From: Gracilibacillus oryzae
Lineage (GTDB): Bacteria > Bacillota > Bacilli > Bacillales > Amphibacillaceae
Length of the DNA: 62,004 bases
Assembly (NCBI RefSeq): GCF_009498735.1
Contig: NZ_ML762427.1
Coordinates: 201,594 to 263,597 of the forward strand
Reading direction: 5' to 3'
Both the position numbers and the translations under genes were made by a program. Under the pieces are notes generated by a model. That model had not been told where the DNA came from. It saw only the letters and a program-made list of their open reading frames with translations, and did no database searches. Each line of letters opens with the position of its first letter. Within the stretch, counting starts at the first letter, position 1. Shown here piece after piece: positions 56,753 through 62,004 of this stretch.

Positions 56753-57271
56753 TTAAGAGTTGTTATTGTTTCTTCTTGAATTACGGCCGCCTTTTTTACC
56801 AATTTCTTCGTAATGATCTTCGCCATATTTATCGCTTGTTGTTTCTCCGCCTTTTTGACCGATTTCCTGGAAGTGCTCTGTATCATACTTGTCACTTGTT
56901 GTTTCTCCGCCTTTTTGGCCGATTTCCTGGAAGTGCTCTGTATCATACTTATCACTTGTTGCTTCTCCGCCTTTTTGGCCGATTTCCTGGAAGTGCTCTG
57001 TATCATATTTGTCACTTACTGCTTCTCCGCCTTGTTGACCGATTTCCTGGAAGTGCTCACTATCATATTTATCACTTACTGTTTGTCCACCTTTTTTCCC
57101 AATCTCTTGGTAAAAGTCCTGATCATGATTTTGGCTTGTTGTTTTTCCGCCTTTTTGCCCAATTTCCTGGAAGTGTTCTGTATCATATTTGTTGCTTACT
57201 GTTTCTCCACCTTTTTGGCCTGCTTGCTCTCTGCTCATTTTACCGTTATTATTATTGTTATTTTTCGCCAT
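56753..57271 (-). CDS. gsiB: General stress protein GsiB (KGG-repeat protein)
   Basis: 172 residues, highly hydrophilic, made of seven ~20-residue repeats with core EHFQEIGQKGGETTSDKYD (part), the KGG/plant LEA group-1-like unit. In B. subtilis GsiB is one of the strongest sigma-B-dependent general stress proteins. The DNA carries matching 60-bp repeats, so copy number may vary. A sigma-B-type promoter lies at 57330-57355, and AGGAGGT precedes the ATG. Confidence 0.95.
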   Translation of the reverse strand: MAKNNNNNNGKMSREQAGQKGGETVSNKYDTEHFQEIGQKGGKTTSQNHDQDFYQEIGKKGGQTVSDKYDSEHFQEIGQQGGEAVSDKYDTEHFQEIGQKGGEATSDKYDTEHFQEIGQKGGETTSDKYDTEHFQEIGQKGGETTSDKYGEDHYEEIGKKGGRNSRRNNNNS

Positions 57272-61364: not shown

Positions 61365-61411
61365 AAACACGAACAATAATTATTTACATTATACGAAAGT
61401 TCGTTTATAAT
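61365..61411 (+). promoter_or_regulatory. guaC promoter with tandem PurBoxes
   Basis: PurBox 1 AAACACGAACAAT (61365-61377) and inverted PurBox 2 (61396-61408, reading ATAAACGAACTTT on the minus strand) match the Bacillus PurR box with CGAAC cores facing each other. The promoter TTTACA (61383-61388), 17-bp spacer, TATAAT (61406-61411) lies within the boxes. guaC is a known member of the B. subtilis PurR regulon. Confidence 0.85.
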
Positions 61412-61442
61412 AATTATGGTTCGAAATTAAATCTTAAAAAAA

Positions 61443-61550
61443 CATTCGTATATTCTTAGAAAAATGGTCTAAGAGTCTCTACTGGGAGCCGAGAAATCCT
61501 AACTACGAATGGGTAGTATGACTCTACCCATTTTTAGTTGGGATTTTTTT
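61443..61550 (+). promoter_or_regulatory. Purine (guanine-type) riboswitch with overlapping terminator
   Basis: Aptamer: P1 CATTCGTA (61443-61450) with TACGAATG (61504-61511); P2 CTTAGA with TCTAAG and loop AAAATGG; J2/3 AGTCTCTACT; P3 TGGGA with TCCTA and loop CCGAGAA, whose CC pairs with GG of loop 2. The specificity base before P1 is C (61503), as in guanine-binding members. A terminator stem of about 20 bp (61496-61544) followed by six T uses the 3' strands of P3 and P1, so aptamer and terminator are mutually exclusive. Confidence 0.88.
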
Positions 61551-61617
61551 CTGCCAAGTTTATGCGTTGATTATTTATATCAAACTAATGATGAAGTAAA
61601 AATAAGGAGTGTATATG

Positions 61618-62004
61618 ATGGAAAATATATTTGATTATGAAGATATTCAGTTAATTCCCGCTAAGTGTATCGTGAACAGCCGCTCTGAATGTAACACCAC
61701 TGTGACACTGGGAGGCCGTCAATTTAAGCTTCCGGTTGTACCTGCTAATATGCAGACAATCATTGATGAGAAAGTGGCTCTTTATCTTGCTGAGAACAAT
61801 TACTTTTATATTATGCACCGGTTTGAGCCAGAGAAACGCTTGTCCTTTATAAAGGAAATGCAGGCAAAAGATCTTTACGCTTCGATTAGTGTTGGAGTAA
61901 AAGAAGAAGAATATCAATTTGTTGAACAGCTTGCTGAAGCAGAGCTTGTCCCTGAATATATCACGATTGATATCGCACATGGTCATTCCAATGCTGTTAT
62001 CAAT
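61618..62004 (+). CDS. guaC: GMP reductase, 5' part (cut by window end)
   Basis: First 129 codons of GuaC. It begins [19 protein letters not shown], continues with [29 protein letters not shown] and [13 protein letters not shown], closely matching the B. subtilis enzyme. The catalytic Cys loop is outside the window. GMP reductase deaminates GMP to IMP with NADPH, returning guanine nucleotides to the IMP pool. ATG 61618 is chosen, with AAGGAG eight bases upstream; ATG 61615 is an alternative. Control by PurR and by the riboswitch is described above. Confidence 0.97.

Follow-up and report, generated by a model that had tools for sequence, protein, structure and literature searches.

Guanine-I riboswitches, such as those of the xpt, purE, guaA and permease leaders, share a canonical three-way-junction core with C at position 74. 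In the accessible parts of the sources, guanine riboswitches are described as OFF switches (PMC5912903, PMC11477304), including one that precedes nupR (PMC9430930). ON logic is assigned to glycine, adenine and lysine switches in the available portion of a 2007 survey (PMC2258182). Herein, the adenine riboswitch pbuE of Bacillus subtilis is the reference: as far as the consulted part of the study goes, it contains a P4 hairpin followed by six U in both states, yet is activated by its ligand (PMC7707468). The leader of guaC described in the following combines features of both groups and is very likely a guanine-sensing transcriptional ON switch that would act kinetically and be AND-gated with PurR.

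The window—the whole stretch of DNA analyzed—comprises 62,004 nt of Gracilibacillus oryzae (GCF_009498735.1, contig NZ_ML762427.1, 201,594–263,597, forward strand). It ends within guaC, whose product is identified as GMP reductase by a profile match to TIGR01306 (E 6.6e-67 across the 129 aa present). The score lies under the full-length cut-off because the contig sequence gives way to N where the window stops: the gene is cut at 62004, and ten N come next (2080–2089 of the extended locus L004). GMP reductase is a consumer of guanine nucleotides, converting GMP to IMP, toward AMP synthesis. The end of P1 and the start codon of guaC (61618) are 106 nt apart. Elsewhere in the window, at 56753–57271, a minus-strand ORF encodes repeated EIGQKGG units, amid other small ORFs. 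The features of the leader are as follows.

61365–61408, plus strand: putative PurR operator pair, two 14-bp PurBoxes with a 16-bp spacer (CGAA core 61370–61373, TTCG core 61400–61403, 30 nt apart)
61383–61411, plus strand: sigma-A-type promoter, TTTACA-17-TATAAT, 11 of 12 consensus letters
61443–61511, plus strand: purine riboswitch aptamer, RF00167 match (P1 61443–61450/61504–61511, P2 61454–61460/61468–61474, P3 61483–61487/61497–61501)
61494–61550, plus strand: intrinsic terminator (arms 61494–61516 and 61524–61546, U7 61544–61550), which excludes P1 and P3
61503, plus strand: specificity base C, from the sequence and the Rfam alignment, which also pairs with G61537 in the terminator
61512–61528, plus strand: short hairpin (P4 equivalent), formable in both states (61512–61516/61524–61528, then U5 61531–61535), from the bound-state fold
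61604–61609, plus strand: Shine-Dalgarno sequence AAGGAG of guaC, from the sequence
61618–62004, plus strand: guaC, GMP reductase, first 129 aa (TIGR01306, NF003966)

The aptamer is the sole RNA in the whole window at Rfam gathering level. The covariance search proposed in the first-pass annotation returns RF00167 Purine at 61426–61525 of the plus strand with 75.9 bits against a cut-off of 37 (E 9.7e-12). The three-way junction is kept, with the conserved letters of J1/2, J2/3 and J3/1 and the GG/CC letters of L2 and L3, both in the Rfam alignment and in 12 aligned guaC leaders. The annotation had read C61503, which we take to be position 74 in xpt numbering, as a guanine-type specificity base, and the sequence and the RF00167 alignment agree. 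The window also has the U51 and the canonical J2/3 length of guanine-I (GUCUCUAC, 61475–61482). U22, U47, U51 and C74—presumably the xpt-type numbers of these positions in the guaC aptamer—and the J2/3 length are canonical in 12 of 12 aligned leaders. The one-nucleotide J2-3 insertion of guanine-II is absent from the Rfam alignment of the window and from the 12-leader alignment, and the guaC leaders likewise lack the J2-3 insertion characteristic of xanthine-II. This canonical pocket argues against an ON switch for another purine, that is, hypoxanthine, xanthine or a nucleoside. Variants of the fold do bind xanthine or 2'-deoxyguanosine, and even the canonical guanine pocket is only about ten-fold selective against hypoxanthine and xanthine according to the part of PMC9295807 at hand; still, such a ligand appears quite unlikely.

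Guanine as the predicted ligand leads to the direction of the response, which depends on the terminator. Its 5' arm begins 17 nt before the end of P1 and holds the P3 3' strand, J3/1 with C61503 and the entire P1 3' strand. The stem consists of 23 positions with one mismatch (C61506/U61534) and folds alone with −29.0 kcal/mol. Hence, the first-pass annotation had placed the stem correctly and had rightly built it from the 3' strands of P3 and P1, as arm coordinates and folding confirm; only its extent, given as 61496–61544, has to be enlarged slightly to 61494–61546. With the specificity base and both 3' strands inside the terminator, the bound aptamer and the terminator are mutually exclusive. 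In the folding test, in which the terminator probability with P1 forced is compared with that upon blocking the P1 5' strand, the guaC leader (L004) gives 0.00 and 0.99, respectively. The earlier proposals that ligand binding prevents termination and that the arrangement is pbuE-like are thereby supported computationally, with the direction itself predicted: L006, a pbuE-like switch of adenine type in this genome, exhibits the same pattern (0.00 and 0.99). An antiterminator that competes with P1, which the annotation had named as the contrary finding, is seen in guaA leaders of the genus and not in the guaC leader. The region 61430–61560 folds with −47.8 kcal/mol, compared with a shuffle mean of −24 (sd 3.2, z −7.5), and 0 of 200 dinucleotide shuffles fold as low. 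A simple terminator scan lists no site at the guaC leader, probably due to the C/U mismatch interrupting the stem; folding and conservation are here taken as the better evidence. A terminator compatible with the formed aptamer, as is usual for guanine-I OFF switches, is not found in the guaC leader. Instead, the terminator 5' arm stems from the P3 and P1 3' strands as in the pbuE-type platform, with C61503 in place of the U74 that confers adenine specificity. The guaC switch would therefore work like pbuE, yet not as an adenine switch.

Transcription would start at about 61418, as judged from the −10 box. The aptamer would fold once 61511 is made, followed by the P4-like hairpin. In the growing transcript, the mean P1 probability is 0.97 at 61511–61516, 0.72 at 61520 and 0.44 at 61526, and recovers to 0.98 at 61528 upon closure of the short hairpin. 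It then declines to 0.77 at 61530, 0.47 at 61532, 0.14 at 61534 and 0.00 at 61538. Without guanine, the terminator 3' arm would invade P1, pass the specificity base and P3, and complete the 23-position stem, with termination at 61544–61550. With guanine bound, the three-way junction would delay the invasion of P1 until the polymerase has passed, and guaC would be made. At 61550, the free ensemble lies 16.8 kcal/mol below the aptamer-forced ensemble, in energies that take in neither tertiary contacts nor the ligand. The ligand would thus probably lose at equilibrium, so that control would have to be kinetic, as described for pbuE (PMC7707468, in part). Several details of the stem recur across the leaders. 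The base of L3 carries a mismatch in the window (G61488/A61496) and a purine–purine opposition in 25 of 29 distinct guaC leaders. Opposite the equivalent of C61506, in the P1-derived part of the terminator, 25 of 28 readable leaders have a mismatch (U 14, A 10, C 1) and three have G. The neighboring pair G61507–U61533 is a wobble in 12 of 12 aligned leaders. Mismatch and wobble may slow the invasion through two G–C pairs of P1. The first-pass annotation is right on the sequence and, judging from sequence and folding models, very probably right on the direction.

The short hairpin could also be read as the terminator of an ordinary OFF guanine switch, with the bound-state stem 61511–61516/61524–61529 followed by U5 at 61531–61535. 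In its 6-bp version, which adds G61511 and C61529, the hairpin reaches −7.8 kcal/mol and is followed in the window by AUUUUUAG. However, only five to six pairs are left to it when P1 is formed, and the U stretch varies in length: among the 29 distinct guaC leaders, it comprises five U in 14, four in 1, three in 13 and one in 1, that is, at most three U in 14. An equivalent hairpin is part of the ligand-activated pbuE, and a far stronger terminator (−29 kcal/mol), whose stem requires the aptamer strand, reaches its U7 8 nt downstream. OFF behavior is thus very unlikely, and the ON switch remains the preferred reading.

A riboswitch leader precedes guaC at 36 loci with 29 distinct leaders, some species being present twice. 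P1 excludes the terminator in the window and at 25 of 25 guaC loci scored by the folding test, a set that includes L249 and leaves out the 10 riboswitch-bearing loci of named GuaC proteins. The latter were found by a genome-contig scan among the best 80 of 585 GuaC loci, three loci being too short upstream to judge; they belong to Peribacillus, Priestia, Sutcliffiella, Ectobacillus, three Bacillus, an uncultured member of the Bacillaceae and two Paenibacillus. Within the window's own family, 129 of 159 genomes have GuaC at the cut-off used, and only three of the 159 match the guaC-leader model strongly (E up to 1e-12), two of them at guaC (the window and G016, of the same genus) and one at a permease gene (G031, L250). 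The model was further applied to 397 genomes at order level and 398 at class level, two sets that overlap in part. In a quick tree of 116 GuaC proteins, which has a midpoint root only and few strongly supported branches, 29 of 30 switch-bearing rows, including the window, fall into one group (SH-aLRT 94). This group spans several families, and Ectobacillus (L072) is placed elsewhere. The switch label changes twice on the tree, compared with 26.8 times on average in shuffles; guaC and its switch have therefore mostly travelled as a unit, by descent or by transfer. Priestia abyssalis carries guaC twice, with the switch at L038 and without it at L068.

The alignment of guaC leaders for which the annotation had called retains the aptamer junction and C74 in its 12 rows, and 95.1% of 264 terminator cells are paired. 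The P3-derived part of the terminator is mismatched in 4 of the 12 leaders (one mismatch in 1, two adjacent ones in 3). As the strand hardly varies in this alignment, covariation is limited to one double change, which 36 of 500 shuffles match, and is too sparse to count as evidence. Evidence of covariation hence comes from the terminator pairing of the specificity base across ON-type leaders. A decayed or constitutive attenuator without ligand response, as might be read from an equilibrium fold that favors the terminator by ~17 kcal/mol, is scarcely credible given that both exclusive structures are kept in 29 distinct leaders of several families, including Paenibacillaceae, and that changes of the specificity base are matched by its terminator partner in those ON-type leaders.

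The guanine-responsive attenuator would not act alone, since a putative PurR operator pair overlaps the promoter. The window has the motif CGAA-N26/27-TTCG, as do all 29 switch-bearing guaC leaders tested; among leaders that lack the switch it occurs in 72 of 86. Single-letter shuffled sequences contain it in 0.7% and 0.8% of cases, respectively. TTTAC...TATAAT accompanies the boxes in 27 of the 29 switch-bearing leaders. A further CGAACATT motif, resembling half a PurBox, lies between terminator and start codon in L037, L038, L040, L041 and others, not in the window. For B. subtilis, the available part of PMC8789054 defines PurBoxes as 14-bp boxes with a spacer of 16–17 bp and lists guaC as a PurR target. 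The two PurBoxes expected of a PurR-regulated promoter are predicted in the window (cores at 61370 and 61400). PurR is released by PRPP. The operator pair and a guanine-ON attenuator therefore suggest, as an inference from the parts, an AND gate that requires enough PRPP and surplus guanine. In this arrangement, guaC would be expressed when PRPP is high, meaning that adenylates are short, and guanine is plentiful, returning GMP to IMP for AMP synthesis.

The purine riboswitches of the genus serve as controls, comprising all 83 sites in 17 genomes (L193 unparsed). The U74 sites are ON in 10 of 10 by the hairpin-position test, all before pbuE-like transporters, and in the folding test P1 excludes the terminator in 10 of 10. 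For the 72 C74 sites, hairpin position yields 57 OFF, 9 without hairpin, 3 ambiguous and 3 ON; compared with guaC, these guanine-I switches mostly place the hairpin at least 15 nt after P1. The three ON sites are the window (−29.0), the guaC leader of G016 (−26.7) and L003 before guaA (−14.1). By folding, the 72 split into 52 compatible with P1, 12 without hairpin in range, 3 mixed (L017, L020, L186) and 5 that exclude the terminator, namely the two guaC leaders, L003, L179 and L181. Within the genome of the window, the U-type L006 is ON, the C-type L001 and L005 are compatible with P1 and L002 has no hairpin in range. Among the 72 C-type switches, the two guaC leaders are thus ON by sequence and model, and the three others flagged by the script look different on reading. 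In the guaA leaders L003, L017, L020, L179 and L186, the P1 3' strand (GAAGGC or similar) can pair with GCCTTTC, the 5' arm of a separate downstream terminator, which corresponds to an OFF plan. The ON scores of L003 and L179 and the mixed scores of L017, L020 and L186 were obtained because a short U stretch follows that arm. They are read as antiterminators, and the ON flag of L003, from the same genome as the window, is hence taken as wrong. L181, before an adenine deaminase gene, owes its flag to a weak hairpin of −9.1 kcal/mol with no terminator after it. No terminator was found in the C-type adenine deaminase leaders L030, L168, L170, L176, L177, L181 and L182. A CCUCCAUAUAG-like stretch upstream of the gene offers their P1 3' strand an alternative partner, and their sequences suggest that they use another expression platform.

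In a wider set, 96 loci matched by the guaC-leader model were examined, consisting of the best-scoring ones and 39 picked down the list; the duplicate L254 and many weaker matches were left out. Because the model was built from guaC leaders together with their terminator sequence, its hits favor ON leaders and do not measure how frequent these are. In 95 of these ON-enriched loci (L249 is counted with the genus), formed P1 excludes the terminator in 70 of 76 C-type and 18 of 18 U-type leaders. The exceptions are L227, L241 and L260 (mixed) and L284, L288 and L289 (compatible), with L277 unparsed; L272, once scored OFF, is ON by folding, and as its sequence contains the overlapping hairpin, the OFF score is taken as an artefact. 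The C-type ON leaders precede Xan_ur_permease-type transporters (14 of 17; Pfam PF00860 was checked on L217 only), an FAD-dependent oxidoreductase (10 of 12 by motif, four more by eye) and amidohydrolases (2 of 2: L290 above the NF005557 cut-off for 5'-deoxyadenosine deaminase, L271 by likeness only). Those before pbuE-like transporters, named so from leader and likeness, are ON in 2 of 2 cases (L242, L243). The U-type leaders precede pbuE-like transporters and, in three cases, adenosine deaminase.

Some of these loci deserve a mention of their own. L242 and L243 carry C74 in place of U74, which predicts guanine-activated efflux; the 282-aa transporter of L242 matches no NCBIfam model at cut-off among the 25 shown of 54. 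The FAD-dependent oxidoreductase stands behind mostly ON guanine-type leaders (L225, L227–L232, L234–L237, L241, L244–L247). It received no NCBIfam name in the one member scanned and may act in purine metabolism. Twelve ON-type guanine aptamers end J2/3 with CUAG for CUAC, a one-letter change at equal length (L233, L253, L255–L259, L261, L264, L265, L273, L275), before Xan_ur_permease-type (5) and FAD oxidoreductase (7) genes. They are possibly a variant with altered specificity.

The pairing of the specificity base was followed in 103 distinct hairpins from 106 leaders (the 96 and ten pbuE-like ones of the genus). The hairpins were sought close to this base, which favors ON leaders, and the rows are related by descent, so the numbers are counts, not events. 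Position 74 pairs as C–G in 72 of 75 C-type hairpins (3 unpaired) and as U–A in 28 of 28 U-type hairpins, without any wobble. Position 74−2 is G–C in 42, A–U in 40, G–U in 8 and unpaired in 13. Position 74+7 occurs as U–A, A–U, C–G and G–C, and its P1 partner often changes too. The P3 motif AGGA...TCCT is common to adenine and guanine leaders. P1 reads ATTCGTA or GTTCGTA in most C-type leaders and TTCGTA in those of adenosine deaminase, and differs in pbuE-like leaders. These patterns point to one lineage, in which the ligand would have been changed by paired mutation in one direction or the other; a shared constraint may also account for them. As the specificity base is locked into the terminator, it must change together with its partner. 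On balance, we favor the existence of a Bacillota ON lineage of purine riboswitches, in which this base would be both ligand contact and terminator pair, and a change between adenine and guanine would require a paired change (U74–A or C74–G). Its guanine branch would control guaC, Xan_ur_permease-type transporters, the FAD-dependent oxidoreductase, 5'-deoxyadenosine deaminase and a pbuE-like exporter. At guaC, the AND gate with PurR would open the path from GMP to IMP only under high guanine and low adenylates. One aptamer fold would thus be re-wired in direction and ligand.

Compared with the described systems, the guaC leader most resembles pbuE in its platform. Both have a terminator derived from the P3 and P1 3' strands, a P4-like hairpin, a U stretch, a mismatch at the base of L3 and strand exchange, as far as the available part of PMC7707468 describes them. 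The P3 motif is also alike in both. They differ in the specificity base (U for adenine in pbuE, C in guaC), in P1 (CTGTA or TTGTA versus ATTCGTA) and in the gene controlled (an exporter versus GMP reductase). Guanine-II, xanthine-II and the 2'-dG/guanosine-binding variant have the same fold and are ON switches according to their authors' predictions; U22, U51 and C74 are retained in guanine-II. These variants carry J2-3 insertions (one nucleotide in guanine-II), whereas J2/3 of guaC is canonical. They precede genes other than guaC, guanine-II most often phosphoribosyltransferase genes (all from the accessible part of PMC9295807). In the PurR regulon of B. subtilis, guaC is a target with no riboswitch named before it in the portion of PMC8789054 seen, and the guaC locus of Bacillus halotolerans (L101) has no match to the riboswitch search motif. 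In the consulted parts of PMC9430930, PMC4448311, PMC8789054, PMC4223553, PMC2311275 and PMC9367096, no riboswitch is described ahead of guaC. The open-access literature, to which most subscription journals do not belong, yielded no account of a guanine riboswitch at this position. The novelty would hence be a canonical guanine aptamer with reversed logic at a new gene, ON logic having already been predicted for variants of the fold (PMC9295807, in part). If true, the canonical aptamer would here form a natural guanine-activated switch, and for GMP reductase such activation is metabolically reasonable. Its nearest counterparts are the engineered xpt/pbuE chimeras, in which the xpt guanine/hypoxanthine aptamer was placed on the pbuE platform with mixed success, reaching ~14-fold induction in one case in E. 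coli (PMC7707468, available part). These chimeras are man-made, whereas the guaC leader is natural and would offer a guanine-ON part of natural origin.
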